NCBI GenBank assembly: GCA_963402885.1
Contig: OY727094.1
Coordinates: 7,690,501-7,754,500 of the forward strand
Origin: Antedon bifida
Taxonomy: Eukaryota; Echinodermata; Crinoidea; Comatulida; Antedonidae
Direction: 5' to 3'
DNA: 64,000 nucleotides
The notes below the pieces were generated by a model. The model did no database searches. It worked only from the letters and a program-made list of their open reading frames with translations, and had not been told where the DNA came from. Below, one piece after another: positions 7,869 through 62,789 of this stretch (the stretch's first letter is position 1; each line of letters begins with the position of its first letter). The position numbers and the translations under genes are program-made.

Positions 7869-8187
7869 ACTCTAATAATCATTCCTTAACGTGTTTTTAA
7901 TGGCTGTCCATTTTAGCTTGCGAGGCAGGCAATTTTTCAGGATACAGACCGTCTGTACTGACCTTTAAGGACAAAGGATTTTATGATATTTCTATGTAAA
8001 TTATGCTAATCTTATGAGAAAATTGAATTAGTAATCATTATTCGGTGATATTAATTTTATGAATGGTCTACAGGCCTAGACTCGAAGAAGTTCTGTTCTC
8101 TGGTGGCATCAGCATGTTCTGGGTGCTTACAAATTCTGTAAACACACCCAAAGTGACAAAAATTTTATGTATTTGGTTCTTACTTAC

Positions 8188-33376: not shown

Positions 33377-33789
33377 TAAGGCTGTATCTCGAGATATTTT
33401 TTAATGTGTTGAGCCTTATGTTAGAGTGACTCTCTAGTTGTTTAATACTACCTCCATGGCTGTATCTCGAGATATTTTTTAATGTGTTGAGCCTTGTGTT
33501 AGTGTGACTTTCCAGTTGTTTAATACTACCTCCATGGCTGTATCTCGAGATATTTTTTAATGTGTTGAGCCTTATGTTAGAGTGACTTTCCAGTTGTTTA
33601 ATACTACCTCCATGGCTGTATCTCGAGATATTTTTTAATGTGTTGAGCCTTGTGTTAGAGTGATTCTCTAGTTGTTTAATACTACCTCCATAGCAGCTGT
33701 ATCTCGAGGTATTTTTTAATGTGTTGAGCCTTATGTTGAGTGACTCTCTAGTTGTTTAATACTACTTCTATGGCTTTATCTCAAGATAT
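33377..33789 (-). repeat. 78-bp tandem array abutting the THAP stop codon
   Basis: Five to six units start at about 33380, 33458, 33536, 33614, 33690 and 33768, each with GGCTGTATCTCGAGATAT, AATGTGTTGAGCCTT and GTTGTTTAATACTACCTCC. The last, most divergent unit overlaps the gene: TTATGAATGTGTTGGATCTTG there encodes the final residues and stop. The array therefore appears to be tandem duplication of the end of the coding sequence plus 3' UTR. Each unit carries ATTAAA hexamers on the minus strand, the closest at 33755-33760, about 30 bases after the stop. Confidence 0.85.
33755..33760 (-). terminator. Possible polyadenylation signal ATTAAA of the THAP gene
   Basis: This is the first ATTAAA hexamer downstream of the stop, about 30 bases away. 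The same hexamer recurs in every 78-bp unit, so several poly(A) sites may compete. There is no transcript evidence. Confidence 0.3.
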
Positions 33790-39893: not shown

Positions 39894-40989
39894 ATTGCCC
39901 GATTTTCATAAGATTTTAACTAGTATAATTTGGTAAAAATATATTATTTTTTATTTTTCGATATTTAAAAATGAAACAAAAAATTAACTCGCCCGATAAG
40001 GGACTTGAACCCAAAGGATGGTTCCATAGATGAATGGGAACACGTCCTTAAATGTTCATATGCCTAGTCTGAGCATGGTCTGAGATTTTCGCTCTCTGAG
40101 TGCCCTGTTATTTCTGTAACCACGTGCAGAATATACAATTAATCACTCCATCCTGATAACTAAAGAACTGCATCAACACGAAATACACGGTTCAGTAGAC
40201 AGTACAAAATAGTACGCAATAGTACATTTTGTCGGAATCATCAATGGTATAACTATAAGAATATCTACAAATAAAGGAAGTCCGAGAGAGTGCATTAAAG
40301 ATAGCTGAAATAGATACTAAAAATGAACAGATTATTTATTGGCCTCAAAGAAACGCCGAAAATATTATCTAATTGAAAATTATATCCTGGAAAAAATAGT
40401 TTAATTGGAAAAATATTACAATGTTGTAGGAAGTGGAAGAGAGGGTAAATTAAAGATAGATGAAATTGATAGATTGTTATTATTTACTTTAAAGAAACGC
40501 CGAAAATATCTAATTGGAAGTTATTTGTGGTTAAAAAAAAGTTGACATTCTGTTATTATTAATATTATGAGTAGTATTCGCATTATAAAATATACAAAAG
40601 TTGTTGTTTCAGCTTTTCGTTGAAGTTAGTACCTGACACGAAGGCGCAATCCGGTGGTCTAGTGTAAAACAATTTAAACATTTTTCTTTCCTGGCACGAA
40701 TTATTACATCCTATCTATGCCGTTCGTTACCTCAAACACAAAGACAATTTCTCATTTATACAATAATAATAAAAATCAAATCCAGTTCGCCGACATGGAA
40801 ATGAGAGTATGATCATAAACTGAGGTTGCCAACTGTAATGTAATTTACACACACAAATCGTACTTAATAACTAACAGAAAAGAAACTTACAAAAAAAAGA
40901 AGATAGATAAAAGAATGACAATGCCACAAATAGAAAGTCTGTGCACTTTAAACAATAGAAAACAATATATTTGGGCGCAAACCTCTGAA

Positions 40990-41021
40990 CATGGAGGAAA
41001 AAATTTATTTTTTCCTCCATG
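40990..41021. mobile_element. 32-base palindromic insertion, 7-base target duplication CTCTGAA
   Basis: The arms CATGGAGGAAAAAAT and ATTTTTTCCTCCATG are perfect over 15 bases. CTCTGAA lies at 40983-40989 and again at 41022-41028. It is not part of any longer repeat I can see. Confidence 0.75.
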
Positions 41022-41149
41022 CTCTGAATAGTGTATAGTGTTAAGTCTATATATTTCCTCTCGCTCATGTCACGTGAACGTATGTTTTTAATGTGTTTGT
41101 ATAATTTTATTATTATTTTTTTATATATTTTATTTTATACGCATACAAT

Positions 41150-41338
41150 AGCGATTACAGGATGGATAAACTATGTTTAAAAGATAATTGGTCGTGGCTT
41201 TTAAACTAAGTCTCATTTGAGGCTTAGGGAGTGGAGTTGAAAGAGTCGTGAGTTTTAACAAGATTGAACCCTGGACCCTAGAATTAAAAGTTAGCAACCA
41301 CGCTAGTGACGGCTCCACTACTTAACCACCAAGCTACA
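41150..41338 (-). mobile_element. SINE family C copy
   Basis: On the minus strand the head is CTGTAGCTTGGTGGTTAAGT with box B CCAGGGTTCAATCTTG. The body is CTCCCTAAGCCTCAAATGAG. Confidence 0.65.
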
Positions 41339-42009
41339 GATTCACTATTAAATGTAGGCCTATGGTTATTTCAATGTATTTTTAATTTTATACTGTATCA
41401 ATGATGACATTTATGGTATAGGCACGTTACCGTCAGCAGACACGATACTACACATTGTATAATGTCGCCAGCCATGATAAAATTGAAAATCGGTTACCGC
41501 ACAACTCCCTGGTTACCGTAAGAAATTCAAATCACTTGAAATATCCAACAAATCAAAAGAAGCATTTACAGCTGGGGGTGTTTTTAAACTTTAAGTACAC
41601 CACGTGTAACCCTTTGTCTTCGTTAATAACTCGCTTTTAACAAACAAAAAAACTACAAGATGGGATAAAAGGATGACAATGTTAGAGATAAAAAGTGTCT
41701 ATTTTGTGCCCTTTTCTCATTACCGCTCAGTAATTAAAAGATTAAGATGGGAAAGTGGTGGTTTATTGTCGGCTAATTTTCGCATAACACCTCGATTGTA
41801 CATAAACACTAGACGTGTTAATTCTTTCACACTTAGGTATTTTCGATTGCGCATCTGTGTACCTAACAGATGAAAATCTGTTAATTCTTTTATAAGAGTG
41901 CATTCCATTTCATCAAGGGGTTTCGTTAATCTAAAAGTTTTCAGAATTGGTTTTGTGAAACACTGTATTAGAGCCCGCATACTAGATTAAAACAATGTTA
42001 ATGAATACC

Positions 42010-42720
42010 TCTGGATATCACGTCTGTTTGCTCTAGTGATCAGTTTTCTAAGCTGAAATTTAAAATCCTCAGCATAGAATTTAGTTTTTGTGAAACTCAA
42101 TTAAAGTTTTAACGAATGCCTCTCGATAACGCGTCTGTTTACCAACACCTGTGTGTTTTCTATATATATTTCACTAAGCAGAAAGTTAAAATCTTTAGCA
42201 TAGAATTTTAGTTTTTTGAAACTCAATTAAGGTCTTATCCTCGATCTAAACTTGCAAAGAATCGCTCTACCAAAACGATAAACACACCTGTGTGTTTTCT
42301 ATATATATTTCACTAAGCAGAAAGTTAAAATCTTTAGCATAGAATTTTAGTTTTCTCAAACTCAATTAAGGTCTTATCCTCGGTCTAAACTTGCAAAGAA
42401 TCGCTCTACCAAAACGATAAACACACCTGTGTGTTTTCTATATATATTTCACTAAGCAGAAAGTTAAAATCTTCCGCATAGAATTTAAGTTTTCTCAAAC
42501 TCAATTAAGGTCTTATCCTCGATCTAACCCTGCAAAGAATCGCTCTACCAAAACGATAAACACACCTGTGTATTTTCTATACAGTATATATTTCACTAGG
42601 AAGAAAGTTAAAATCTTTAGCATAGAATTAAAGGTTTTTGAAACTCAGTTTAAGTTTATCCTTGATCGAATCCTGCAAAGAATCGCTCTACCAGATTTTT
42701 TTTCCGAAATAAAAGAAATT
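42010..42720. repeat. 139-bp tandem array, about four to five units
   Basis: Copies of TTTCTATATATATTTCACTA occur at about 42158, 42297, 42436 and 42575. Each is followed by AAAGTTAAAATCTTTAGCAT and GCAAAGAATCGCTCTACCAA. The outer units are more diverged. Confidence 0.85.
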
Positions 42721-43214
42721 GAATTGAAATTGAAAACGATAAACAGCAGAAAGTGAAAATCTGATGATCTGCATAGAATTAAGGTAACTCAATTAGGGTC
42801 TTTAAGAATAAATTCCAATCGATATGGCAGCCTGTTTGTTTTCCCAAAGATGTTTTGTGTTTACATGGAATCCATAATATTAAAATGTTCAGTAGGCCTA
42901 CACAATTTGGTTGTGTGAAGTTTCGTACTGAATTAGGCCCATCGTGTTTATTTATAATATCCAACATTTGGTTTTGTGAAGCACTGAATTAGGCATAGTG
43001 GATTGACCTAAAAAACGTTTATTGCATTATGTCGACATGGTTAAACATTCGGTGTATAGGCTACAAAATGATGTCGCATCAGAGAGTTCATTTACTCTCT
43101 GGTCGCCTACATTAGAATAATGTTTTTTCGTGGCACCCGGGGTAATAGGCCTACTACTGCAAAGCTTTTCTTCACTGATGTCGAAATGAAAGGAACTGAT
43201 CAATGTGGTTGGAC

Positions 43215-43248
43215 CATGGAGCTATAAAATTAATTTTATAGCACCATG
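43215..43248. mobile_element. 34-base palindromic insertion, 7-base target duplication GTTGGAC
   Basis: The arms are CATGGAGCTATAAAATT and AATTTTATAGCACCATG, with 16 of 17 positions paired. GTTGGAC lies at 43208-43214 and 43249-43255. Confidence 0.75.
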
Positions 43249-43440
43249 GTTGGACCATGTTAAGCCCAGAGAACCTACATTTTGAGCTTGGGAATGCTCG
43301 GTGGGCTTCATTCAAATCCAACACTATATACTCCTTTCATGAATTCAGGATACGTCACTGCATAAATACAAATAATATTTGGCTTTGTTCCTATTATGCA
43401 ATTTCAATCACCAATATATGATTTATTTTGTAAAAATTAC

Positions 43441-43597
43441 TAAAGCTTTATCTACACTATCAAACTAGTTTGACCAAAAAAAGTGATGTGCCCAAATATG
43501 GTAGTTATGGTTAAATATGGTAGATATATATCATGTCCATATATAAGGGGACATCGCATTTTTGTCACATAAAATTTGATAATGTAGACAGAGCCTA
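43441..43597. mobile_element. MITE family A copy
   Basis: TAAAGCTTTATCTACACTAT is at the left and GATAATGTAGACAGAGCCTA at the right. Confidence 0.8.
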
Positions 43598-44687
43598 AGC
43601 CTAGCCTATCCGAATGTTATAATAGATTTTGTGATTCACTCGATTCTCGGTCGGTGACTGTATATGACGATATTTGTTGAATATCTATGCAAATTCGGTG
43701 ATACAGCATAACATGTGGAAAATTAGGTTCTCTTCAATTCCATGGTTAAGGGTAGGTTGGATACAGGCGTTACATGTGAAACACATATGATGCTGTTCAC
43801 GGAATTTGCATGAATACTTTTAATACAATCTTAACAGTATAAGCTCACTGAGAATCCGCTAGTAATGTCACGTTTGTTGGTGGATAATTACGCTGTAGTT
43901 TCTGTTGACTAACTGCTTATTTTATTCTTTTAGAAAAACATACAATATTAAACCTTGGAAAAAAACAATTTTATATTTAACAAATATTTAGTTTGGAGAA
44001 CAAGCATAAATCTAAACTGCTTTACTGTTTAATCGGTCGTGTTTAATGAAGTGAAATTCCGTCTCGTTAAGTCACAAACCAAACAATAGGCACGTTTTTA
44101 GGATAAACTCCAATTGTTGATATTTCGGCTTAGCTGAGTTCCAAGCCCTGGTAAAAGGTATCCAATTAAGGAAAGTTTCCACCGGTTAACGTTCTCTTTA
44201 AACCCTCTTATTTTTCTACGAGCTGAGATTATCTGTGATAAGGAAATTACGCCCTCCGGCTGAGTACTCTACTAATAATACAATTTATTAGTAGAAAATA
44301 TTGATATTTTTTTATCAGGATATCTCCATTCTTGATCACGGCTCGAGAATAGTGAATCGAGGTGTGTGGACGCGTACGGTACCCTCGGCTATGTATTTGT
44401 ATAATCACAGGTGAACTCCCGGAGGTGACAGGGTTTAAATTTGATAGGATTTCTTTACCTAATCTGTCCACATTTGACTAACCTCTCCTTAAAAATATCT
44501 ACATTGTATTACTGTTTTCATTCTTATTGAAAATATAAATCCAACAAAGTCTGCCGAAGTGAGATAACTTGGAATTTGATACTGAATGCGAACTGTTACA
44601 ATTGCAACGCAAAAAAAAGATTAACATTATATTATTATAGATATTTTACTAAGATAAATAAATGTGTTAATATTAACACTATATCCA

Positions 44688-44897
44688 GATGTTGATATAA
44701 ATTTGAGGTACACCACATATATTGTTTTGGAAAGAACTGCTGAGTGTCTCGACGTTTCGATCAATATACTTTGATCGTCTTCAAAAGTGAGAATGTTCTG
44801 AGGACAATCAAAGTATAATTGATCGAATCGTCGAGAAACTCAACAGTTCTTTCAGAAATATGTATACGTGATGTACAGCAAACTTTATACCAACATA
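44688..44897. repeat. Foldback element, about 100-bp imperfect arms
   Basis: GAAAGAACTGCTGAGTGTCT and CGACGTTTCGATCAATATAC on the left pair with GTATAATTGATCGAATCGTC and AACTCAACAGTTCTTTC on the right. The loop is short. It has no coding capacity. Confidence 0.8.
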
Positions 44898-45614
44898 TTG
44901 ATTTCGTCATGCAAACCTTCAAGCAATATATATATACAGATGCAACTGTTTAAATAATAATGTATTCAAAATCAATATTAACATTTCTGGTTTATACCGA
45001 ATTGAGACAAAATAGAAGGAAACAAATATCATTCTTTAAAAATGTTGCCGTGCATACCAAAATTTAACATTTATATCAAACCATAACCTTTATTAAGGGG
45101 ACACCTTCGGGACCAACAGCTGAATGACCGTGTTAACAACATATAGGCTTGCATGGCTCCTTGTTAATTTTATGGGAAAGTATGTTCCATCATGGTAGGC
45201 CTGTATCATAGCTGTTTAAAATCTACACCTTCAGTAACACTTTTATTGTGGCGACGTGTTCTTGCACTGTCTTTGTTGTTTGTCTACCTTTCATTCAAAT
45301 TAATTACCATCGATACTTACACATATAATTATAATGATGATATTATGATTGTGTATGACATAATAAAACAGATAGACACCGCTTATTATGCTTTACTATG
45401 CTGTACGATACCGCCCTCACTCGCAGCCTTAATATAAATCATGGAAGTTCCATGAATTAAATGTATAGTGACTGACATTAGAAGTGCACACAAACATCAA
45501 AATGCTATTCAACCAATTACCTTTTTTATTCTTTTATTACTAAAAATATATTCATTTCATAATAGGCCTATTCATAACTTAACATATACAGTACATCTCC
45601 TTAAATGTTAAGTT

Positions 45615-45994
45615 ATTAACACATTCACTTAGTGTATTTATTTTCTTAAACATATTCATTTCTTAACATAATCATTTTAGCCTACCTTTCTTAACACAAT
45701 TCATATTTTGACATATTCATTTCTCACATAATCATATTCTAGCATATTCATTTCTTAACATAATCATATTCTAGCATATTCATTTCTTAACATAATCATA
45801 TTCTAGCATATTCATTTCTTAACATAATCATATTCTAGCATATTCAATTCTTAACATAATCATATTCTAGCCGTATTCATTTCTTAACATAATCATATTC
45901 TAGCATATTCATTTCTTTTAGCATAATCATATTCTAGCATATTCATTTCTTTTAGCATAATCATATTCTAGCATATTCATTTCTTAACATAATT
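45615..45994. repeat. 32-bp minisatellite, left part
   Basis: The unit is CATATTCATTTCTT followed by AACATAATCATATTCTAG. About eight good copies begin near 45743, with degenerate ones before. Some copies have a TTTAG insertion. The array resumes beyond the LINE at about 49694. Confidence 0.9.
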
Positions 45995-48900
45995 CATTCA
46001 TTCATTCATAATAACATTTATTTCTTATCATTTCAAAGTAAACAAAATAACAATTTAAATATAAATAATTAAGAGGCAACACCCAGAAAGTAATAACATT
46101 TGGAGGTTTCCCTCCAAAAAAACTTGTGACGGGTAGCCAGTTAAAAAGTTATAAACATATTGGAGTTTAAACAAACAGAAACAAAACAAGTCAACGACAA
46201 GTTAATAATAATATAATACTATGGAAGCACAGAAAAACCAGAATAAATATGTTGTTTTATTATTATTAGTTATTTATGGAGTAGAATTTGTTTAAGTTTA
46301 AAAGAAAATTTATTTTTTGAAGGTGCCAATTTAATTTCGTCGGGGAGATCATTAAATAATTTGGTGCCACTATAACGGATATTATGTTGCATTAATGTTA
46401 ATTTGGTAAGGGGAGGGTGGAGGTTACAGGAGGATCTAGTTTTATGGGTATGAATACTATTATTTTTTATAAAGCTGCAAGAAAGTTTAGTTGGAAGTAG
46501 ACAGTTGACATGTTCATAGACGAAGGTGCATTGTTGGAGGATATTGATGTTTTGGACAGTTAATAATTTAAGGTCAGAGAAAAGCTCACTAGTGTGATCT
46601 AGGCGTGACGCACCAGAGATGAGGCGAATAGCTTTTTTTTGGAGAATAAAAAGTTTGTTGAGGTTTGAAGCATAGTTGTTTGCCCAGACAATATTACAGT
46701 AAGAAATAAAAGGTAAAACAAGTGAACAATAAATCATGCGAAGGACTTCTTTGGGCAAGTAAAATGAAAGACGATATAATATTCCAATATTTTTCGAAAT
46801 TTTAGTTTCGATTTCTTTAATGTGGTGTTTGAAGTTTAGTTCTTCGTCTATTTCTACTCCAAGAAATTTGGTATGCTTAACAAGAGGAATTTTGTGGGCA
46901 GCAAGGTAAACATTATGAGTGTCGTTAATCAAATCTTGGTGTCGAAAACCAAAAAGCATAAAATGGCATTTGTTAATATTTATTGAAAGTTTGTTTGCAT
47001 TGAAATAATCGTTCACGTTCTTCAATTCCCTATTAAAAGTATTGAAAATGAAATCAAAATTAGTGTGTGAATAAAAAATGGTTGTGTCATCAGCATAAAG
47101 ATAAAAAGAAAGGATGTCAGATGCATTTGGTAAATCATTGATATACAATAAAAAAAGAAGAGGGCCTAATAGAGACCCTTGAGGAACACCACAAACAATA
47201 GGTTTGAAATCGGAAAAAACATTGTTGATATAGGTGCATTGAAGTCGATTAGACAGATAATCTTTAAAAAGGTCAAGAGAAATGCCACGGATACCATAGT
47301 TAAAGAGTTTTGACAGTAAAATAGTGTGATCAATGGTATCGAATGCCTTCGACAGATCTATGAATAGGCCAGACGAAAACAACTTATTATGAATAGCATC
47401 CACAATGTTGTTGGTAAGATCAATTAAAGCAAAAGAAGTGGAATAGTTTTGTCTGAAACCATATTGTTTATTGTAGAGAATGTTGTGTCGGTTAATGAAA
47501 TCATACGTACGGTCATAGATAAGTTTTTCAAGAATTTTTGAAAAGAAAGTAAGAACAGAAATTGGTCGATAATTGTTGGGATCAGATTTGTTACCTTTTT
47601 TGTATATAGGAGTGACCTTTGCAGTTTTCATGCTTTTAGGGAAAGATCCTGTGGATAAAGATAAGTTGCAAATATGAGTAAGTGGAGAAAGAATAAGGTC
47701 TATTGATTTTTTAACAACATTGCCACATATATCGTCAATTCCAGCAGCCTTGTTGTTTTTGAAAGAGTTGACAATTTTAAGAACCTCATGTTCCGAAACA
47801 GGAGATAAAAAAAGGGAATTTGGAGTAGGAGGACTAAGATAGTGACGGAAACTATTGATAGAACTAGTGTCGATTTCTTTTGCTAATTCAGGCCCTATAT
47901 TGGTGAAATGGTTATTTAATAAGTTGGACACCATTTTCGGGTCTTTTGTTAGATTTCCATTACTCATTATCTCAATGTTAGGAATTGTGTTGTTTGATGG
48001 TTTAAGTATAGAGTTTATAGTACGCCAAGTAGCTTTAATATTGGATTTGTTTTCATTAAAAAAGTTTTTATAATAATCCACTTTAACACTTTTTAGAAGA
48101 TTATTTAACTTATTACGATACTTTTTGTATTTCAATATATTAGCGTTGGAAGGGTGCCGAATGCTCTTGAGATAAAGTTTTTGTTTGTATGAGATGGAGG
48201 TTAAAAGCCCGTTGGTCATCCAAGGTTTTAATTTCTTTTTAGTTTTAGGTGGATCTAACAAAGGGAAGTTCCTATCATATAGGGCTTTGTACTTTACGAA
48301 AAAAGTATCATACGCTTCGTCAGGGTCTAATTTATCTAAGACATCATTCCACGATGTTATTGACAGATCATTTCGAAAATGATGAATATTGTTTTCATTA
48401 AATTTTCTAAATTTACGCTTCTCTTTGTCTGTAGACTTACTTGAATTAATAATGTTCACAGTGAAAACGGGAAGGTGATCAGTTGCGTCACTAATGACAA
48501 TGCCGCTCATTGAAGAGTCTAGACTGTTTGAAAAAATGTTATCAAGAAGAGTGGCAGAACTGGGAGTTATTCTTGTGGGTCTGTGGATAAGAGGATAAAA
48601 AGAATTGTTAAATAGACAATGGACAAAATCATTTACATTATTATTTGAATCAAATTTTAAAATATCTACATTAAAATCACCTAAAAGAAATACCTTTTTT
48701 TTCTCTCTAGATATTTGTTTTAAAAGAAGTTCAAGTTGTTCTGTAAAAAAAGGCATATTAATTTCGTGAGGTCTATATATAGTACCTATTAGAATAGATT
48801 CTTTGTCGGTATGCACTTCAATAAATTGTGATTCACAGAAGTATTGAGTAGAAGTTAAATCATCTCTGGTTGAATAGCGTGTATTATTATTTACAAAAAT

Positions 48901-49693
48901 TCCAGTTCCTCCACATTTATATGAACGAGGATTGCAAAGAAATGTATAGTTGGGTATCTGAATAAGTGGGCTTGGGTGATCCATCCATGTTTCTGTAATT
49001 GAAATAATATTGAAATTAAAGTTTAAAGATTGAATGCAATCATAGATAGAATCAAAATTTTTTTGCAGGCTTCTGGCATTAAAATGGACACAAGAAAAGT
49101 TAAATTGGGTTTTGTCATTAAACTGAGAGTTAAATTCATTTGGCAGGTAATAATTTGAGATATTTATGTCATTAAAAAAATTATCTGGGTCTATATCGTC
49201 GAATTGTCTACTGTGTGTAGAGGGGTTAAAAAGTAAATTAGAGAGTCGGTCATGGTTATTGTTTTGTGCTTCCATATTATTAACAAACAAATAAAAATAG
49301 TTAGATTTGAATAATAAAAAACTAAAAGCTTAGAGCTTGAATTACAGTACATAACATTACTCACAAGTCTATCAACTATCAACATTAAGGAGTGAGTAAC
49401 TTTGAAAAACAACATTTGAGAATAGCAACTTTTCCCTTATATATACATATATACACATTATATCACATGAAATAGGTTACAGCAGTATGGTATGGTGCTG
49501 TTGGGTAAAATTGTATCAATAATAATTGAGTTGATTATTTAAGTTTAAATTTATACAATTTGGATTAATTAACAATATAAAAATCAGTAACAATTTTTTT
49601 TTTTTTTTTTTTTTTTTCTGTTATTGTTATACTGTAAATATGTATTAATGCATTAATTCGATTACTTGCATAATTGATTATTTTCGAAAGCTG
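45995..49693 (-). mobile_element. Whole LINE insertion including UTRs, inside a 32-bp minisatellite
   Basis: The 3' UTR runs left from 46269 to a (GAAT)n-like tail at about 45995-46012 (ATTCATTCATTCAT on the plus strand). The 5' side extends to about 49690 and contains an A-run (plus-strand T-run at 49589-49617). The insertion is flanked on both sides by units of the same 32-bp minisatellite. There is no ORF1, so the copy may be 5' truncated upstream of the main ORF. Confidence 0.75.
46270..49290 (-). CDS. LINE (non-LTR retrotransposon) ORF: endonuclease plus reverse transcriptase, uninterrupted 1006 aa
   Basis: Residues about 65-280 form an apurinic-type endonuclease of the exonuclease-endonuclease-phosphatase fold: HFNARSLQ, SITETW (E100), GGTGIFV, LLGDFNVDI (205-208), HRPTR, LDNIFSN and the closing SDATDHLPVF. 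Residues about 505-815 form a reverse transcriptase: NNKAAGIDDI, NYRPISVLTFFSKILEKLI, GFRQNYSTS, FIDLSKAFDTIDH, GVPQGSLLGPLLF, YADD (732-735) and TKFLGVEID. The C-terminus (SGTKLFNDLPDEIK) matches CR1/Jockey-group LINEs. There is no RNase H domain and no gag-like ORF1 upstream. The exact clade is not resolved. A second Met at residue 6 may be the real start. No stop or frameshift interrupts it, so the insertion is young. Confidence 0.93.
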   Translation of the reverse strand: MFVNNMEAQNNNHDRLSNLLFNPSTHSRQFDDIDPDNFFNDINISNYYLPNEFNSQFNDKTQFNFSCVHFNARSLQKNFDSIYDCIQSLNFNFNIISITETWMDHPSPLIQIPNYTFLCNPRSYKCGGTGIFVNNNTRYSTRDDLTSTQYFCESQFIEVHTDKESILIGTIYRPHEINMPFFTEQLELLLKQISREKKKVFLLGDFNVDILKFDSNNNVNDFVHCLFNNSFYPLIHRPTRITPSSATLLDNIFSNSLDSSMSGIVISDATDHLPVFTVNIINSSKSTDKEKRKFRKFNENNIHHFRNDLSITSWNDVLDKLDPDEAYDTFFVKYKALYDRNFPLLDPPKTKKKLKPWMTNGLLTSISYKQKLYLKSIRHPSNANILKYKKYRNKLNNLLKSVKVDYYKNFFNENKSNIKATWRTINSILKPSNNTIPNIEIMSNGNLTKDPKMVSNLLNNHFTNIGPELAKEIDTSSINSFRHYLSPPTPNSLFLSPVSEHEVLKIVNSFKNNKAAGIDDICGNVVKKSIDLILSPLTHICNLSLSTGSFPKSMKTAKVTPIYKKGNKSDPNNYRPISVLTFFSKILEKLIYDRTYDFINRHNILYNKQYGFRQNYSTSFALIDLTNNIVDAIHNKLFSSGLFIDLSKAFDTIDHTILLSKLFNYGIRGISLDLFKDYLSNRLQCTYINNVFSDFKPIVCGVPQGSLLGPLLFLLYINDLPNASDILSFYLYADDTTIFYSHTNFDFIFNTFNRELKNVNDYFNANKLSININKCHFMLFGFRHQDLINDTHNVYLAAHKIPLVKHTKFLGVEIDEELNFKHHIKEIETKISKNIGILYRLSFYLPKEVLRMIYCSLVLPFISYCNIVWANNYASNLNKLFILQKKAIRLISGASRLDHTSELFSDLKLLTVQNINILQQCTFVYEHVNCLLPTKLSCSFIKNNSIHTHKTRSSCNLHPPLTKLTLMQHNIRYSGTKLFNDLPDEIKLAPSKNKFSFKLKQILLHK

Positions 49694-49810
49694 ACATTCA
49701 TTCGTATATGAAAATACAAACATAGCATTCATTTTATAAAATCAAATCATACTCTAGCATATTCATTTCTTAACATAATCATATTCTAGCATATTCATTT
49801 CTTATTTCTT
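49694..49810. repeat. 32-bp minisatellite, right part after the LINE
   Basis: Two near-consensus units (49756 and 49788) are preceded by two diverged units (about 49694 and 49724), each ending ATAG or CTAG. The same unit as on the far side of the LINE shows that this was one array. Confidence 0.85.
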
Positions 49811-51947: not shown

Positions 51948-52330
51948 ATGTGACAAAAGGGCGCAAGTGCAAATTCATACGCGACTAGACAACGTAAGCG
52001 TCACACTCGTTTGTGACCAGAGAACGCAAGTGTGAGTTTGCGATCAGAGAACTCAAATGTCACACGCGTTTGCGATAAGAAGACGCTAGTGTCACACGCG
52101 CTTGTGACCAGAGAACGCGAGTGTCACACGCGTTTGCGACAAGAGGACGCAAGTGTCACATGAGTTTGCGATCAGAGAACTCAAATGTCACACGCGTTTG
52201 CGACAAGACGCTAGTGCCACACGCGTTTGTGACCAGAGAACGCAAGTGTTAGATGAGTTTGCGACCAGAGAACTCAAATGTCACATGCGTTTGCGACAAG
52301 ACGCGAGTGGCACATGCGCCACACGTTTCA
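51948..52330. repeat. CpG-rich 32-bp minisatellite, about 11 units
   Basis: The unit is GTCACACGCGTTTGCGAC followed by CAGAGAACGCAAGT. A variant unit with ATGAGTTTGCGATCAGAGAA alternates, and two units lack three bases. It is the most CpG-dense stretch of the window, rich in ACGCGT. A 120-codon open frame across it looks incidental. Confidence 0.85.
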
Positions 52331-52499
52331 GAAGAAGGCAGAATAACGGGAGTACTGCACACGCGTTTATGGCAAGCGAGGTAATTAGTCATACGCCGCG
52401 TTTACAACAGGAGGACGCTGCAGGTGCCACACGTTTTAAAAAAGCAGCAGCAGCAGAGCGCGAGTGCAAACGTACGCGCATTAAGGGCACATCTTTGGA

Positions 52500-53005
52500 G
52501 CACGAATTATTATAATTTAATTATTTATTTTATTTTTATTTTAACAATACGAGGGTGGTCAATTCAGCCGAAGCTGATCATTAGGGACCCTCACAAAAAT
52601 ACAACATGATTAGACATAAACATGTAACAATAAAAATTAAATAAATTAAACAATTTAGAATAAAAAATTAAATGAACTAAATTAAATTGGCCATCTCATA
52701 AGAAAAGATAGGGGAAAGGAAGCAACTAAACAAGAAAAGATGGTTCTTGAGCAGAAAAGTGAAGGAAGATTAAAATGAAGCAAGTTGGATATCTAAAGTA
52801 AGAGAAGTAAAACAAGTTGGGGCATTGCAGCTAAAAGACTGTTTGAAAAGTTCCAAGTAAGGTCTGGGTATAAAAAGATCACCGTTGGTGATCTGGCGTG
52901 TGGCCATGCGGTCATTAGATAACCATGTTTACGCAACAGAACACGTACAGGAGCACGAGTTACAGCAATAGAATGTATTATTAGGCTCAGGGAAGGAAGA
53001 GCAAT
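52500..53005 (-). mobile_element. LINE 3' fragment (C-terminal coding remnant and 3' UTR)
   Basis: On the minus strand a remnant reads TNGDLFIPRPYLELFKQSF and SCNAPTCFTSLTLDIQ, like the C-terminus of CR1/Jockey LINEs. A 3' UTR follows, with the stem-loop AATGATCAGCTTCGGCTGAA and an AATAAAATAAAT tail at about 52505-52560. It is truncated at the 5' side. The tail matches the fragment at 39.77-39.89 kb on the other strand. Confidence 0.65.
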
Positions 53006-53019
53006 TTTACTCTTCCCTG
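52988..53019. repeat. 32-base palindrome (CAGGGA type), no flanking duplication
   Basis: The arms are CAGGGAAG and CTTCCCTG, with partial pairing beyond. The flanks TTAGGCT and TGCACAT do not match. It may be an old copy or coincidence. Confidence 0.35.
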
Positions 53020-53762
53020 TGCACATCAATCTACACTTTACCTATGCTTATAGTTTAATAATGACAGCCTATGTTTTTTTTAAATAATAAATAAATTTGT
53101 TCAGAATAAAATGTTAAAACAATATGCCAAATGTGTTTTCACTACCAGAGAAATAAGGATGCTGTGAGCCTCTCAAACCGGTTACAATAATAAGTCTGAG
53201 AAAAATGTTGATTCGAAAAAAACAAATAGGACACTCTCTCTCTCTCTATGAAATTTCATCTGGGGTTTGATTTAATGCAATTAACCCACCAGCACTTACT
53301 TAATGTTGTTTATTAAATAACACCCTCGTTAGCTAATTGGCCTTGTGTGTTTGTGCACGATTATTGTTGTTTCCAGTAATTTCCGTCATTTCAAATTGGC
53401 GGCGTATTTTGATGATTTGTTCTTCTTTATCAGCTTAAACAATTTGTTTATGCTTCTATCATTCAATCATTTTATGTAATGATAATAATTAAATCTTATT
53501 TGTGTCGGTAATATATAATGATGAATATAAAATTATCAAGAAGTAGAATTTAATGTAATTATCGTTTTTGCTTATTTGATTCGTATCTCCATTGAGATCC
53601 AGCCACTGATACCCACAGCATTGTAATTTTTTATTCAGTGCTTATTTTATTTGTAGGCCTATCTCCATTAAGATCCACGTCACATAGCCACAGCATTGTC
53701 ATTTTTTAGTAATTTTCCTTTGGATTATACACTAATTAGTTATAATCATTTAGAGTCGTAAG

Positions 53763-54240
53763 TTGAAATCAGAGCCATATACAGTATATAATCATTTAGT
53801 TTTGAAATGTAACATTTTTTACAACATTAGAAAAGAAGAATTAAAAAACCTAGAAAATCATTTGACCCTCTGTAATGATTATGACCTATGGACATTATTT
53901 ATAAATGCAAATGATGAAAAATTAAGTTTTACATTAGGAGGAGAGTCTGCCCCCTCTTTCTAATAAATCATACAATTCATTTGATAAATTTTGTAAACAT
54001 AAGTTCTGCATGGGAGAAACGATCCTCTATAAAGCAGGGAGGTATCAAATTATAATCTTTTTTACCTCCCTGTTTAAAGTACTCCCAATGATCGATTTAT
54101 AGTATTGTATTGTAAATTGTTTTTAGTTTAGTTACAGTTTAGTTATAGTTGTATTTCTTTTTCAATATGTTATGTTCTGTTTTGTTTCTTGGAACGAAGT
54201 ACATGGTCAACAGATAAATAAATTAATAAAAATGGCTCTG
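53763..54240 (+). mobile_element. LINE 3' fragment with C-terminal coding remnant
   Basis: The reading NHLVLKCNIFYNIRKEEL, then NDYDLWTLFINANDEKLSF, follows the C-terminal Cys/His pattern of LINE polyproteins (H..L..C..Y..IRK...). A short 3' UTR and an AATAAATTAATAAAAATG tail follow. A 38-base palindrome (54035-54072) is inserted in the UTR. Confidence 0.5.
54035..54072. mobile_element. 38-base palindromic insertion (CAGGGA type) in a LINE 3' UTR
   Basis: The arms are CAGGGAGGTA and TACCTCCCTG. The flanks TATAAAG (54028-54034) and TTTAAAG (54073-54079) match in 6 of 7 bases. Confidence 0.6.
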
Positions 54241-57200
54241 ATTGAAATGCTGGTATGACGCCCTCTTCGGTCATCTCCGCCAGGAAAGTTGATCAACTGC
54301 AGTATTGTTTGTTTGTCTGTAACGGTCCGAAACCCTAGATTTTAAATTCATTAACTTGCAGATTCTTTAAAAAGTCTATTTATTGTCTAGGCGTTTTAGC
54401 TTTTGATTTTATATTACAGAGAAAAAGTACACCGACGTGTTTGTTGGTTTAAATTACCACTAGGGCGTTAAGTTATTATGTATTATGTTGGTACCACACG
54501 TTCAACAGTTGCTATAGCAGTTGCCAGCCACGTGACACACGATCGAATCAACTAACACGTCCCCTTCAAAATAGCGTCCTTGTGGGGTGTTCCATGGACA
54601 ACAAACACATGAGTTAGGCCTAAACATCCCTTTGTTTACACGCGAAGCGTGCGGTATTTAGACCGTCGCAAGCGATACCGACTGTGGCGTATTTAATTAC
54701 ATTGTAATTCGCGTGGACGTGGGAAAGCCACGAGCTTCTATTGTTAAGAGAGCGCAGATGATCGACCACGAGCCACGGGCTGCCGTGGGAATTCACCGAA
54801 TCTGTTACTTTCGTTGTTGAATCAACAAGATTCATGAAATCAACAAGCACAAAATCAAATTATTTGTTTTATTATGTTTACAATCGTGAAGATCACATGA
54901 CGCGTGATAAATAGAAACTAGATAGATAAGTTCGATCTAACATTTTATCAAGCTACACTGGACGCTTTTTATGTGCGCGCGCAGCGTTTAATGTTGATAA
55001 AAATTAATGTATACGGGATTGTTACGTGCGCGTAACTGTATACTTTGTATGTTTCAGAATTTCATGATTATTTTTTAATTTTTTAAATATATTTTTTCCA
55101 TTGTTTTTATAAGTAATATTTTGTATTTATTTTTTCTATTTATATTTGTTTTGAAGTTGGCAAGGGACAAGTTTAAACACGTGACAAGACAAGATTCTGT
55201 GTGACTTCTGCTTTTTCATCTACACACGCATATTCATGACGAAGGCATACTGTTTTCTGAAAGCTTTGAACTTTTTCTGACTGTTTAACTTTTTGTTTTT
55301 TAAGAGTTTTATTTTAGCTTTCTGCTTATTTTATTTGTATCTCCATTGAGATTAAACACTGATACCCACAGCATTAACAATACCAAAGTAAATTGTCTTT
55401 GAATAAATAAAATAAATCTTTTATTTTGCTCTAGTCACAATAACAAAGAGACCGTACGTTATATTTTTGCCTTTAGGCCTAATATAAAAATACACTAATT
55501 ATAATTAATATATAATCATATAATGATAAATGATAGTATTGTATATCAATTAACTAAAGTGACCTGTAGCATACATTCAACAAAAAGCGTTGGGCAGATT
55601 GACCATATACAACTTTTATTCTTCTAGCGCATGCACAGTATCAATATACCTAATTTACGAACAAAAAACAATTATATATAATATCAAAAAAGTAAACTAA
55701 TTTAAAATTGGCACATGTCGCTAACAAACCGCACACACCGCCTTTCCTCCCACTTACGGATGTAGCAATTTGGCTTGCAGGCGAACCGGCAGATGAGCCA
55801 AGAACGGCGCGTGTCGGGTCATGGGAAAATTATAGCCAGCGCACTCTGCTACTGGTTACGATTATTAAGACCTATTATACTTAATCGCCAAGCGAGTAAC
55901 AAATCAGAATGTATTAATTGACACGCGCCCGCTACCGACAAGTCAAGCGAGCGTGTTTACTTGATTTTTTTTCTGCGTTGTTTGTGGTCACTTTTGCGAA
56001 TACTGCATGCGCCTGGCACACTCTTACATGAAATTAATTCATTTTATATTCGCCTGCTGGTGAGCGCGAATTCACAAGTTGGTTTCTAGACTGAGGCTAA
56101 ATTAAAATAAAGTTGTAACACTATTAAATTATACAGGCCTAGAGTACTGTAACAAAACGCATCACGCATGTGTCCGCTGTGTTTCTTGAAAAAGTCTGGC
56201 TAAATAGGTCAAATAACTGAAATAAGCGATAATAAGCGATATACGCTTAGTCCATCCATTTTATTTTTGACACTTCGACCAGGTGACGAATTAATGTCTG
56301 TATTTACAGTAGATACATTTTACTGTGTCTACTGTAAATACAACAAGACATTAATTAAAATACAATAACAAATGACAATATTAAAATATTGTATATTCTA
56401 CGCCCTGTCATTCGTTACTCTCATGGGCTGTGTGTGTCCCAGGTAAACATGTGTAGTTTAGTAGGCCTACATTTTTCATTTTCATCATTTTAGTCCATAT
56501 TTTCTTTGGTCTTCAAACGAGTCTCTTTATTTTCTTATTATCTATTAACATTGGCACAATACCTCTATGATAGCACATGTTGTATGCTGCATTATAGGCT
56601 ACTTATGATAAAATGATATATATATTTCGTAGAAAATTCAATAATATTGTCATTTATAAGTGATATTCTAGTTATATCGATAGAGATCATACGAGAACAC
56701 TGTTTCAGGCATAGAACGTGGTCATTAGATTTCGATTGTTTAGAGTTAGTTAAAACATTGGTTAAAATCAGAATGTGTTAGGCTACCATATTGTGATATC
56801 TCAATATTTAACCTACCCTTCATTGAAATCTAGGCCTTGATAGATTGAAATAGGCCTATAAACAAAATTTTCTAGAAACCTATTACGTTGACTTGTCATA
56901 GCCCAAGCATAAAATTATTGTTACTTTTAGTAGTTTATTTGTTTAAATATTTGTCTTTTCGTAGGGAGAGAAACCTTGCTTATGTAGCGCCCCCTATAGA
57001 TATGTACATGACCAGCATACCGAAGTCGGTCGAGATGCTCAATACTGTGGGAACCAAGTCCGTACCATTGTGTTTGTTTACCGTTGCTTCAAATAAGGCG
57101 TTAGGCAAACAATAGCCCGGAGCTAGTTCAATCAATTAATCCGGATCAGATTTGAACGCGTGTTGGCCACACGAAGCATTGTTAAGAGTGTGGGAACCTT

Positions 57201-58299
57201 TTCTACGTTTGTTGTTAGAAATAGTCATGATTATCCGTATCAGGGTAGCTGTATTTCATGATTCAACAGAACCGCGTACGTATAATTATCGAATTCGTTA
57301 ACAATAGATTGGAATGATGATGTCATACGATAATTATTGAGCATGGTGTGTTGATTACATGTCATTACCAGAATATAAGTTTTGATGATGAACACCAAAA
57401 ATCAGAAAATAAAAGAATTGTAAAAAAAAAATCCAATAAATATTTATTCATCAGAAATAAAATCGAAGTTGAATAAATTAAACAATAAAGACCTGAAAAC
57501 AATTGAAAAAATGCTACATTAAAAAAAGTGTGAAAAGGCTGAAGCCAAAAAAGTTTGCAAAACAAAAGCCAAACAAATTCTAACTTCCTAAACTAGTAGG
57601 CTTTATGTCTAATCATAAGAAAAAGAAACTGATCTTTTTGAAATATCTCATGAAGCCTTTTTGCCATGCGGTATCAAATGTGTTATTACACAAAAATTCT
57701 ACAAAAAATCCAGCCACAAATTGGTAGTCTTTAACTAACACAATTCATTACTAAATTAAAGTAAAACATATAATATCGCATATAAAAATACAAAACATTG
57801 CAGTCAAAAGGTAATCAAAGGTTAGCCAGGTAAACACACATTATTCTCTGGGCTGTCATGCAGGCAATATGTTACCAGTTCATAAAAACATCATGGCGGT
57901 AATAGTCACATCTAGAGTTGTTTGGCAATCTTTAGTTGGATATCTTCCATTTTTAAATATAGGTACTATGGTATAAACAAATGTACATGTTGCACAATTT
58001 CTGCAATCTTTCTACTTTCTGTTGAGTTTTAAACATAATTTGAATTTAGGCTTATGAACCGAGCAAGACTCCCGTGCATGTTCATATTTAAATGAGGAGT
58101 TCAGCAAACATTTTGCAAAAGTGATATTTATAACAACCAACTTACTAAAACTTATTATTTCAGGCCTTTTAAAAATGTCTAGGCCTATTTTATATCACTT
58201 TGTTTTATGGTAAATGAAGTTATAGGCCTATCTCAAGCTAAATTTTTTTTTTTTTTTGAGAGGTCATAAAGTAGGCCTGAACTGCATTTTTTAAAAGAG
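54241..58299. other. Intergenic or intron, no gene seen
   Basis: CpG-bearing, less AT-rich patches occur at 54480-54830, 55740-56080 and 56960-57260 (words such as CCACGTGAC and TGTTTACC). They could be regulatory. No exon with good splice words and a recognisable product was found. Confidence 0.5.
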
Positions 58300-58638
58300 A
58301 TAGTTTCGATTTGTTTCTATTGATAATATTGCAGGTGCAGGTGGAAAACAACCTGTTAAGAAGTCCAATTCTTTTGTTATCTAAAACCTCCAGTGTTTAT
58401 ACAGTGAGAACCGTTAAAACGAGACAGATGGTTTGCATAGAAAATGCTATAGTTTCGAGATCTTTGCCAATTCAAAAAGAGCGCGCATCGAAGTGTTTGT
58501 TCGTTTAAGCTCTTTGTTTGGTCGACGACAGGTTAGAATTGATCACGTGATCTAAGTATCGATTAGCAGGTTATTGCACGGGTTAAGCCCTGAAACCTTT
58601 TGTAGTACCTGTCAAGCGGAAAAGGCCACGGTTCTTAC
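58300..58638. promoter_or_regulatory. Possible regulatory block next to the 58.6 kb exon
   Basis: It is less AT-rich than its surroundings and repeat-free. It has TTGATCACGTGATCTAAG (a perfect E-box-centred palindrome) and TATCGATTAG. It lies just downstream of the candidate exon. No function can be read from sequence alone. Confidence 0.25.
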
Positions 58639-58694
58639 CTGCTCCCAGCATTCCGAAAGGCTCAAAAAGTTTTAATTTCATAGCAGCACCTGCT
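58639..58694 (-). CDS. Candidate short coding exon (possible start MKLKLFEPFGMLGA)
   Basis: On the minus strand a 56-base segment is bounded by a good acceptor (TTTTCACTTGCAG) and donor (AGCAG|GTAAGAAC). It is open in one frame as AGAAMKLKLFEPFGMLGA, with an ATG in a fair context (GCTGCTATGA). I do not recognise the protein. A donor at 63612 could supply a first exon, and splicing the two keeps the frame open. No next exon to the left was recognised. The call rests on splice words and composition alone. Confidence 0.4.
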
Positions 58695-59950
58695 CTGCAA
58701 GTGAAAATATGAAATGGCCCGTTACTAAAAGAATAAAAGAACGCTTAAAATGGAATTTGAAACATTTACAATTTATAATCGCTTTCGGTAATTCCTACTT
58801 TATTGATACTTTGTTAAATTAAATCCAAAGTATTCAAATCATTATTTAAAAGCGCAATAAAAGTTGACATAACAATACTACAGTTTTTAACGGAACTTCA
58901 TGATTTCCGTTTTGGTACTATTTTTTACTAAAATAATCTTTAAACTTTCAAATTGTTGACAGATTTAATAATTGGTATTTTAGAAATTGTTAATTAATTC
59001 GCAGATAGATGAGTTTGGTATCGGTATAAATTATAGTATTGAGGTATCATTGTGGTTCGATTTTACGAGGTCTAGGCCATGCGAAATTGAGACCTGGTAA
59101 AATTGAACGATGCCCAATGTGATGTTGCCACTCCGGTGTCTGGTTTGTATTTATAATGAACCCTACTTTATGTTAATAACTTTCTAACATTAAGTCCTAA
59201 AAGTTTCTCTTTTGTGCTTTGTTTTAACATTTAATTTTATCATATTGGTACAATCGTCGAGGAAAATAAATGTCCATGCCCCAGCTAGACCAAGAAGAAG
59301 GTTGGAAACATTGTACCATGGGTTTTAAAAAATAACTGGGCCTATGCCTATTAGATTTCATCTTCTTGGTTAATTAGGGTGGGTGGAAAATGTGCAAACT
59401 ATTAGGCCTACAAGTTGCAAAGATTCCAGCCCCCTGAGTGTTCCGGCTTAGAAAATTTGCTCTTACAAAAATGGCTTCAAATATGAATTTAAGAAGAGAC
59501 AAATGTTAATGTTCGATAATCCGTTTTAATATATATTTTTGCTTACAAAACGCCCGCATCTATCATAACTTTCAGTACGCCTATTCCTACTTTGTGTTTT
59601 TCTTATATTTTCTATAAATGTATACAGAACTTATTTTGACACGTGTTAGATGACAAGTCAGTACAAGATACGATTTTGTATAGTATTGTCTTAATTGGGC
59701 AGGGTCGTCTAAAATTCCGTGACACGTAATGCCCGCATATCCTTATTGCAAAGTATTTTTGTTGTGACAAGAACGCTCACGCCTGCGCTTGAGAAGGAAG
59801 TTATGACGTATTAAGGTATTTCTTTTATCCAACAAGCCTGTGAAAATTCTTCATCATCCAAAACATCTTGCAATCTTTCTGAACCCCTTTTAATTTTTGA
59901 AATCAGGTTTTCTCGTTATTCAAATAAGTTCAATTTAATTTAAATTATTG
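58695..59950. other. Intergenic or intron, no feature seen
   Basis: AT-rich, with TAGGCCTA-type words only. Confidence 0.5.
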
Positions 59951-60268
59951 TTAAAGCTGTATTGTCTCCCTGAAAAGATAATTCTTAAACATTTTTTTAA
60001 TATGCCATTTTAATGTCACCTAATAGCTATCCACTTTGACCAAAAATTGGATCGAAAAAAATGTATTTACCTAAATATCTGTAATTTAAAGCAAAAAATA
60101 GTCAAATTGGCTGCCAGCCAATGGGTTTTTGGTTGTAATTGGCCATTTATTTTGTCGGGTTTTTTTCTACGGAAGTGAATAACTTTATTAAAACTACAAA
60201 ATAATCTATTCAAAATCTGATTTTATTAATCTTTATTTTCCATATTTTTGGGAACAATATATCTTTAA
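59951..60268. mobile_element. MITE family B copy, complete, inverted
   Basis: It runs from TTAA to TTAA (318 bp): TTAAAGCTGTATTGTCTCCC to GGGAACAATATATCTTTAA. Interior words match the 20.4 kb copy in reverse orientation. Confidence 0.85.
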
Positions 60269-60299
60269 TGTAAAGATAAAAAACCCTCAAAACACTTTC

Positions 60300-60598
60300 A
60301 AAGATGTATTTTTCCCTCATAACATGAAAATGAAGACTAATAAAATTTGATTTTGAATAGGCCAGGTAGTTATAATAAAGTTAATTACTTCCGCAAAAAT
60401 AAAAAATGTTTCACTTACAAAAAGGAAAAACAAACGATTAATTTCAACCAAAAACCATTTGGCTGACAGCCAATTTGTATATTTGTTTGCTTTCTTACTT
60501 TTTTTTGTGACTAACTATTATGGAACATAAAAATGGCGTATTAAAAAAAATTCAAAATTATTAAATTATTTATTCCAGGGGGACAATAGTGTCTTTAA
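60300..60598. mobile_element. MITE family B copy, direct, facing the previous one
   Basis: It starts CAAAGATGTATTTTTCCCTC and ends GGGGGACAATAGTGTCTTTAA. It is only about 30 bases from the inverted copy, so the pair can fold back. Confidence 0.8.
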
Positions 60599-62084
60599 GT
60601 AGTATTGGTGACGCTTTTGATGAATTGAAAGGGGTTTTTTTTCAGTGTGCAAAGAAATATCAACTGTAAATGATGTATTAATAGTTTAGCAATTCAATTA
60701 ATATTTATAATACATTATATATTATTAATCAGTACGCTATTTTTCTTAAAGTAGGAAGTTTTTTTCTCATTCTGTAAAGAAACACAAAATAACACATAAC
60801 ATAACACGTATTTACTGGTTAATGGATATTCAACAGTTTTAATCAATGTCTGAAATAGCAGTGTTTCGGGTTTTTAAACCTCATTATAATGAATGCGTAT
60901 TGTTATATAAACACACAAAACAACAAAACATTTGCAAATACAATGTAAACTTTTTTTTTCAAACAAAATATCCCAATATGTCTAATTAACACGTAGAGAG
61001 ATGACACAGGTGTACACTTATACAGTAAAGTTTTAAGGGTGTCACGAAACCTAAGTTCAACGCGCAAGCTTTTGGGCGGTAATGGTGAAGAATTCAATGG
61101 TGAAATGTTTCTGTTGAGAGAAACACTTCTTGAGGATTCTTTTTCGTTTGGCAATTAAAATATCTAATACCTAATGTTTTTAATCGAACATTATGACAAT
61201 ATAACGGCTCAATGCGATTGATTACCTATAACAATTAAAAGATTAGAAAACTTTCAAAAGTACAAATTACAACGGTTTCTTAAATCAGCAATATTGAAGT
61301 TGTCGACGGGTAGAAATACAAAAGGACTCAGAGGCCATAGGAGATCGTAAAGAACGATATGGCTAAATCCCGCCAATTATATGCCTACCTAAGTTAATAA
61401 TTATTATTCAAAATATAATTGTGTAACACTGAGTGGTGTGAATCTAAAAAAAGATACAATTCTGTTTCATGGAAAAACATCCTTCCATAATAATTATACT
61501 ATAACTAATTTAAAAAAATCATTATTTATACAGTATAGAAGGCAATACAACATTATAAAATATTTCAATGTGTGCTATTTATGATAGTTAAAATATATTG
61601 ACTAAGGTGTTCGATATATTTCAACTATGGCCTTATTGCCTTAGATGTTACAGGACTTTAAAGTTAAGGTAGGTTAGGGCGCGTTGTAAAATGCTCTCCT
61701 GGGTACAATAGCGCAATTCCTCTGGCCATTGATTTCCTCCCAAGGGGTAGTATGGGTACACTGTATCGATAAAAGTAACAAAGTTGTTGAACTTTTTGTA
61801 AGAAGAATAGGTTCGTTCAATAGGGGTTGTTGACATTAGGACTTATTTGAAACTTTTTCCACAAGGCGATAAATCATGGCGGCTTGGTTAGGCCTATGTG
61901 TTGAAAATATTAAAATCAAAACTTAAATTCATATTAAAATATCATGACTCAAAATGCTTAATAATTAATTGTTGTTTACAAAAAAAGGACCTTAAATCAA
62001 CTTAGGCCTAGGAACATGGCTTGATATGGTCCTTGCTTGAGAACATGTAAACTAGAAAACCATGCGTTTATTATCTAGAATTCT
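60599..62084. other. Intergenic or intron, no feature seen
   Basis: AT-rich. A short frame at 60903-61154 lacks an ATG start and any domain. Confidence 0.5.
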
Positions 62085-62210
62085 AAAGCCTTGTCTACAC
62101 TATCAAACTTTATGTAACCATGGAGAAATAAGTATTTCTCCATGATGTAACAAAATGTGATGTGTCCATATATGGACATGATGATGTCATATCACTACCA
62201 TTCGGGCACT
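62085..62210. mobile_element. MITE family A copy carrying a 26-base palindrome
   Basis: AAAGCCTTGTCTACACTATC starts it and the right end is worn. Its ATGTAAC word is duplicated around a palindromic insertion at 62119-62144. Confidence 0.75.
62119..62144. mobile_element. 26-base palindromic insertion inside a family A MITE, target duplication ATGTAAC
   Basis: The arms are CATGGAGAAATA and TATTTCTCCATG. ATGTAAC lies at 62112-62118 and 62145-62151. Other MITE copies have a single TTATGTGAC here, so the interrupted sequence is known and the insertion is clear. Confidence 0.8.
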
Positions 62211-62632
62211 TATTATACTAGTTAAGATTAAAGTAAGAACATTTATTAATTCAATAATGGTAATAACAATACATATAATAATAAATAAGACATTTTAAAG
62301 ATTATGGATTAGAAGACAGAGTAAAAACAGATACTTAGTAGATAGATTCACAGTTTTTTTTAATTAGACCTAACGTTATAACTTTTTAAATGTAATTACA
62401 ATTACATCAATAATAGGTAATTCATATTCCATAAGTTAATTTAATCCACCGTCACCATCTGGACAATGTCATTGCTTAAAATTGTCACAAATGTGTTGTC
62501 ATTACTATAAAATTAACATGTGAAGAATTTAACATGAATTTTTCAGTTCACATTTTTGTAGTAAAATAGTGGAAAATTATTACTAGATCAATTTTACGGA
62601 ATTTTACTGAAGCTGACTTTTATTAATGATAC

Positions 62633-62648
62633 CATGGAGGAAACTATG
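62633..62648. mobile_element. 16-base insertion of the same type, target duplication ATGATAC
   Basis: CATGGAGGAAACTATG shares its first 11 bases with the 40.99 kb copy but is cut short on the right. ATGATAC lies at 62626-62632 and 62649-62655. Confidence 0.55.
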
Positions 62649-62789
62649 ATGATACCACTTCTAGTTTCAACGAATTTAAGTAGGGTTAAATCAATTTAAA
62701 TTCAACCTTCCGACGAACTATGATTAAATTATATTTTGTAGGAATCTCTTTTTAAATGTTACCAATTTGTTTCTGTTAAGTTTATTTAA

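Follow-up and report, generated by a model that had tools for sequence, protein, structure and literature searches.

A 64,000-nucleotide (nt) stretch of the genome of the feather star Antedon bifida (assembly GCA_963402885.1, contig OY727094.1, positions 7,690,501 to 7,754,500; hereafter the window, whose positions are used for the inserts) harbours four very short inserts that all begin with CATGGAG and are each bounded by an exact 7-bp direct repeat (Table 1). A first-pass annotation had described them as a family of palindromic insertions, and re-inspection of the sequence finds all four between exact repeats that derive from the target and not from the element. Three of the inserts were said to be near-perfect hairpins, which agrees with their folding z-scores of -8.1, -7.7 and -5.9 (+0.3 for the 16-nt insert), while the upper length of 38 given there does not occur among the observed lengths of 32, 34, 26 and 16 nt. 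We refer to the inserts as footprints, anticipating their interpretation as scars of transposon excision.

Table 1. Footprints and flanking target duplications in the window. TIR, terminal inverted repeat; families B and C are described in the text.
Window positions	Feature	Description
40983..40989	Target duplication, left copy	7 bp, CTCTGAA
40990..41021	Excision footprint, 32 nt	Arms match family C TIR over 15 nt on the left and 18 nt on the right, overlapping by 1 nt
41022..41028	Target duplication, right copy	CTCTGAA
43208..43214	Target duplication, left copy	GTTGGAC
43215..43248	Footprint, 34 nt	CATGGAGCTATAAAATT plus its own reverse complement with a single difference; two arms of 17 nt joined without filler (by inspection)
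43249..43255	Target duplication, right copy	GTTGGAC
62112..62118	Target duplication, left copy	ATGTAAC (single ATGTGAC in related empty repeats)
62119..62144	Footprint, 26 nt	Family B element; 15 nt in the left arm and 12 nt in the right, overlapping by 1 nt
62145..62151	Target duplication, right copy	ATGTAAC
62626..62632	Target duplication, left copy	ATGATAC
62633..62648	Footprint, 16 nt	Left arm CATGGAGGAAA (11 nt, family C type); right arm reduced to CTATG by trimming or decay; no hairpin
62649..62655	Target duplication, right copy	ATGATAC

The repeats are very unlikely to be coincidental, as the annotation had argued. Within the window, an exact copy of the preceding 7-mer lies 12-60 nt downstream of four out of five plus-strand CATGGAG sites, against 2026 of 63800 background positions (3.2%), giving a binomial P of ~5e-6; on the minus strand it does so at two of nine sites, namely the two inserts that end in CTCCATG. 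A window scan for CATG...CATG pairs up to 12 kb apart between exact 7-bp repeats returned three of the four short inserts, the fourth escaping because it ends in CTATG, together with one 7186-bp pair. The ends of this pair are not inverted repeats, and the window thus holds no intact parent element of such form.

The pattern CATGGAG-N(1-30)-CTCCATG, corresponding to a total length of 15-44, was searched across the whole genome (315.6 Mb, 27 contigs) and occurs at 1969 loci, compared to 11 for the reversed pattern used as control. Locus counts drop 12.5-fold beyond 44 nt, with 157 loci at total lengths of 45-74 (control 5), several of those listed consisting of two separate or nested short palindromes, and 61 loci at 75-104 (control 11). 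These genome-wide counts contain duplicated copies of single events; the 50 loci listed out of the 1969 hold a tandem triplet and a duplicated pair. One further observation concerns a nested case at C7:15388759-15388810, where one CATGGAG...CTCCATG palindrome lies inside another and the same sequence recurs at C7:16157564 and C7:16335824, which suggests insertion and excision within an older scar that was later duplicated.

Flanks were fetched for 24 of the first 26 listed loci (two triplet members omitted), a non-random sample in that all lie near the start of contig C1. The 7-bp repeats are exact at 13 of the 24 loci, carry one mismatch at four and have two to six mismatches at seven. Both target copies are therefore kept around the scar, within one mismatch, at 17 of 24 loci, as they are at 4/4 in the window, whereas wrongly paired flanks from the same 24 loci agree to this degree in 12 of 552 cases (2 exact, 10 with one mismatch). 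Position by position, the two flanks are identical at 17-21 of 24 loci for each of the seven positions and at 7 and 9 of 24 just outside; on one side, the second base out agrees at 16 of 24, which arises from comparing the flank with the constant T of CATG. Among 26 exact 7-mers, a set that omits the degenerate 18-nt insert L029 8198-8215, position 2 is T in 20, position 6 is A in 24 and position 7 is C in 16.

An empty site is available for one of the inserts. The footprint at 62119-62144 sits inside a dispersed repeat, and none of eight other aligned copies (five in the window, three in the fetched regions L026 and L027) contains the 26-nt insert. In the clearest empty copies (window 25160-25265, 7765-7890 and 29140-29225), TTTATGTGAC runs directly into the downstream sequence and the 7-mer is present once, compared to twice (ATGTAAC) in the copy with the footprint. 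The empty-site comparison that the annotation had suggested thus yields a paralogous and not an allelic empty site, for one of the four inserts. The repeat itself belongs to a family of short dispersed repeats, of which the window contains at least six copies (7765-7890, 17121-17250, 18291-18392, 25160-25265, 29140-29225 and 62069-62210).

Longer elements with the same ends, for which a search had also been proposed, are present in the genome and encode a transposase. The Pfam family PF21787 (RNase H domain of P-element transposases) has 58 matches in this genome, fragments included, and none in 14 control genomes. Twenty ten-kb regions (labels L0xx) picked around these matches contain eight full-length elements of 6.3-7.2 kb with CATGGAG inverted repeats and exact 7-bp target-site duplications (TSDs): L029 (6335 bp), L032 (7184 bp) and six uniform family B copies of ~6.45 kb (L033-L037 and L039). 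No CATGGAG full-length element was seen in the other 12 of the 20 regions: L026 and L027 contain a different P lineage (see below), L038 and L043 each include a single family B end, and the remaining ones have differing or no matched ends. The TIRs of the CATGGAG elements are ~30-34 bp long and start with CATGGAGAAATAAGTTAGGAAGGAGTAACATCGA in family B, CATGGAGGAAAAAATAAAAGGAGATCTCTCAA in family C and CATGGAGTAAAGAATAAGAGGAGACACAAC in family D. A 25-mer of family B has 35 hits in the genome, forming 16 pairs that face inward at spacings of 3.6 to 10 kb, plus 3 ends without a partner. For the footprint at 43215-43248, no intact parent element with its ends was seen in the fetched regions.

One open reading frame (ORF) in each of families B, C and D matches PF21787 well above cut-off (E 3e-24 to 2e-26), and the same three ORFs match PF12017 near cut-off (E 1e-4 to 3e-4; one above, two below); PF21789 lies downstream of the family B transposase ORF. 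Among solved structures, the transposase comes closest to 6p5a, that of Drosophila P (E 5.8e-10), and the alignment includes D230 and D303, which we take to be catalytic (positions counted by hand). Scanning the three main transposase ORFs gave no THAP match with an E of 0.1 or less; two of these ORFs show a zf-AD-like match below cut-off, and no Pfam match to a GTP-binding insertion domain was found in the single, unspliced ORFs scanned. The THAP domain is not known to be universal in the P superfamily; its absence from the scanned ORFs lowers the likeness to P/THAP9 and not the case for superfamily membership. Judged by their sequences, the parent elements belong to the P superfamily, combining a P-type RNase H transposase with TIRs and 7-bp duplications.

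Several further features of these elements are recorded here as separate observations. Two family B elements lie in series with exactly 7 bases between them (C9:27814044-27826956), as if sharing one target duplication. Three CATGGAG families have a second conserved ORF convergent with the transposase (L033 6837-7778, minus strand; L029 2246-3271, plus strand; L032 2572-3171, plus strand), which shows 41% and 38% identity to the family B version, shares the motif RYVAGYVPFAL...RGGLF and gives nothing above Pfam cut-off. Profile comparison with the transposase of another P lineage yields a weak match at the C-terminus only (E 0.039, probability 1.3), and the ORF looks as if a C-terminal transposase domain had split off into a gene of its own on the other strand. 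Another P-type lineage, whose ends are CAAAGATCTTATA, is found at L026 2489-7588 (exact 8-bp duplication) and L027 2443-7508 (7-bp duplication; 711-aa ORF), and a further P-type family with the end CATGGATTAAAGAATAGAAGGATATGCATCGACG at L031 7831 (minus strand) and L030 position 3 (plus strand). A Wntless-type gene adjoins one element.

The arms of the footprints correspond to the tips of these TIRs. Families B, C or D are matched over at least 11 nt on one side by 22 of the 50 listed footprints and by three of the four in the window. Sequences are distinct in 44 of the 50; the one present in triplicate, a 27-mer, is a join at a TTA microhomology, and two of its three loci, for which flanks were fetched, have different target duplications. 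For family B, arms were counted as a TIR tip of at least a given length followed by a nearby CATG, a count that is approximate because some arms match twice. Arms of at least 14, 17, 18 and 21 nt gave 387, 271, 129 and 32 hits, and 18 of the last 32 are 45 nt long, as an intact left end is, leaving ~369, 253, 111 and 14 after subtraction. Per-base survival is accordingly ~0.88 from 14 to 17 nt, ~0.44 from 17 to 18 and ~0.50 from 18 to 21. About 17 nt per end is therefore the main edge of the arms and not a strict limit, with a minority in family B extending to 21 nt and some arms in other families to 24. The 17-nt tails of family B end in TA, such that joining at TA produces a 32-mer in which each arm is 17 nt long, and a length of 32 is found in 8 of 16 both-strand hits among the family B matches of at least 17 nt listed. 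Lastly, filler bases between the arms look in some cases as though copied from the tips: in ten family B, C and D footprints picked by eye, six fillers had a summed longest match to the tips of 32, compared to 25.5 when shuffled (p 0.0005).

We consider it almost certain that the inserts are excision footprints, that is, repair scars of P-superfamily DNA transposons that formerly occupied each site. Insertion duplicated 7 bp of the target, as seen in the flanks and in the full-length elements. The transposase would then excise the element by a long staggered cut, each flank keeping ~17 nt of TIR as a 3' single-stranded tail; we infer this stagger from the arm lengths, and it has been reported for Drosophila P. 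Since the two tails would be the same sequence on opposite strands, microhomology end joining, at times with a few A/T-rich filler bases, would produce a palindrome of at most ~34 nt plus filler between the two target copies, the architecture that the scars display. The repair pathway is probably polymerase-theta end joining, going by work in flies. The conserved CATGGAG would then be the transposon tip and the fold the result of joining two identical tails, and scars that hold tips only should be inert.

The annotation had left three options, of which excision products keeping both ends is the one that is supported; neither a mobile derivative reduced to its termini nor a new class of hairpin insertion finds support, because the inserts mostly contain at most the outermost ~17-21 nt of each end, most of them vary between sites in the manner of end-joining products, and parents of 6-7 kb with a P-type transposase exist. 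The first of these would make the inserts minimal miniature inverted-repeat transposable elements (MITEs), units of 16-40 nt moved by a P-type transposase, for which conserved ends and target duplications at many sites could be cited. We regard this as very improbable. Most inserts carry nothing that lies internal to the outermost ~17-21 nt and so are missing the remainder of the 30-34 bp TIR, and the internal transposase binding sites of P ends are required for movement. The ends of Drosophila P also contain such internal sites (PMC7776569). A mobile unit would moreover show no arm edge near 17 nt, and would not be expected to differ from copy to copy as the listed footprints do, whose interiors are variable joins of TIR tips, the triplicated 27-mer being the TTA join.

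No better placed is the proposal that resident elements suffered internal deletions by replication slippage or hairpin excision, without a transposase. TIRs are inverted repeats and a deletion between them could yield palindromes, but random deletions predict arms of all lengths, whereas family B arms fall off after 17 nt, few remain after 21 and locus counts drop sharply past 44 nt. Least credible of all is a hairpin insertion unrelated to transposons, such as a folded oligonucleotide captured at breaks, which would account for the fold and the short size but not for ends and 7-bp duplications that full-length P-type elements of this genome have in identical form, nor for the fourth window insert, which is no hairpin.

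Excision footprints of this kind can be compared with known P-type systems. THAP9 carries a THAP finger, in contrast to the elements here with their weak zf-AD-like match below cut-off. Both THAP9 and zebrafish Pdre2 are likewise animal cases of a P-type transposase excising its elements, with repaired products carrying deletions recovered (PMC10983969), although their duplications are 8 bp (PMC7776569) and not 7 bp. The staggered cut made by Drosophila P transposase is, at 17 nt, unusually long (PMC7776569; PMC10983969), and donor DNA is left with 17-nt non-complementary 3' tails after P excision (PMC2895639). In Rad51-deficient flies, P(wa) junctions often retain both target copies with up to 17 nt per side, joined at 2-3 nt of microhomology, including TA/AT, or through short A/T-rich insertions (PMC2895639). 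The footprints described here resemble those junctions in their target copies, in tips of up to 17 nt per side, in microhomology or A/T-rich inserts and in their CATG ends. They differ in that Drosophila P has an 8-bp duplication and its junctions were obtained experimentally at one locus, whereas here the duplication is 7 bp, the ends are CATGGAG and ~2000 natural scars represent several families. Galileo of Drosophila is likewise a member of the P superfamily with 7-bp TSDs (consensus GTAGTAC; PMC2775673), and its consensus shares with the 7-mers here a tendency towards T at the second position and a terminal AC; its TIRs are long and internally repetitive (PMC3573991), compared to ~30-34 bp in our elements.

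Several observations weigh against excision as a full account. First, 28 of the 50 listed footprints show no 11-nt match to any of the three known TIRs. Among them many have tips of other types, such as GGTATAAAATTAG, and no intact parent was found for the unmatched tip types (GGTATAAAATTAG, GCTATAAAATT and others). A 19-mer of GGTATAAAATTAG has 44 exact hits (22 per strand), whose coordinates give no inward-facing pair within 20 kb except one 40-nt footprint; diverged parents may nevertheless exist. Second, the 17-nt edge is imperfect, with ~111 family B arms reaching 18 nt and ~14 reaching 21 (one double-counted). Seven of these 14 have an identical total length of 35, pointing either to a join that recurred, and hence to a cut that is sometimes longer, or to duplicated copies. 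In a set in which long footprints were enriched, as many as 24 nt are common to some arms (three duplicates of 50 dropped; only 14 footprint-like rows from the 45-74 list, chosen by eye). The cut may thus be longer on occasion, or in certain families, and the pile-up at 17 may be due in part to the TTA/TA microhomology there. Third, seven of the 24 fetched loci lack an in-register 7-bp repeat within one mismatch; by inspection, the repeat is displaced by one base in four of them (L047, L057 and the duplicates L063 and L064). Fourth, the filler test is small, and five of its six fillers are not significant alone. Lastly, no single locus showed an element in both its inserted and its excised state, and 20 of 66 fly isolates (our sums from PMC2895639) are long-microhomology joins that lost most of the tips. 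Scars of the latter type would escape the pattern used here.

Elsewhere in the window lie a tandem repeat with a unit of ~78 bases (~33390-33615), in which CTCCATG recurs at 33452, 33530 and 33608, and a tRNA-like sequence, GTGGCTGAGCGGTTAAGACAGTGGAACC, at ~34620-34700, possibly a tRNA-derived short interspersed element.

Objects of this kind are known from fly genetics, and what is new is their scale in a natural genome, a lineage with 7-bp duplications and tips without a detected parent. We found no report of a genome-wide set of P-element footprints in the literature searched, with most subscription journals outside its coverage. The ~2000 scars compare with 16 paired-end copies of family B, the most uniform family present, and we lean slightly towards viewing the genome as a natural archive of P-element departures, its ~2000 germline scars (duplicated copies included) representing, among others, ‘ghost’ families that may persist as scars only, such as that of GGTATAAAATTAG. 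If so, the ~17-nt staggered cut would hold outside Drosophila, and end joining would often heal these germline breaks. From ~2000 natural repair junctions one can read, without experiment, where a distant P-type transposase cuts, by what pathway its breaks are repaired and which targets it prefers, and vanished transposon families may be recognisable from their tips alone. Inserts of 16-40 nt are easily overlooked, and such scars may be present unnoticed in other genomes.

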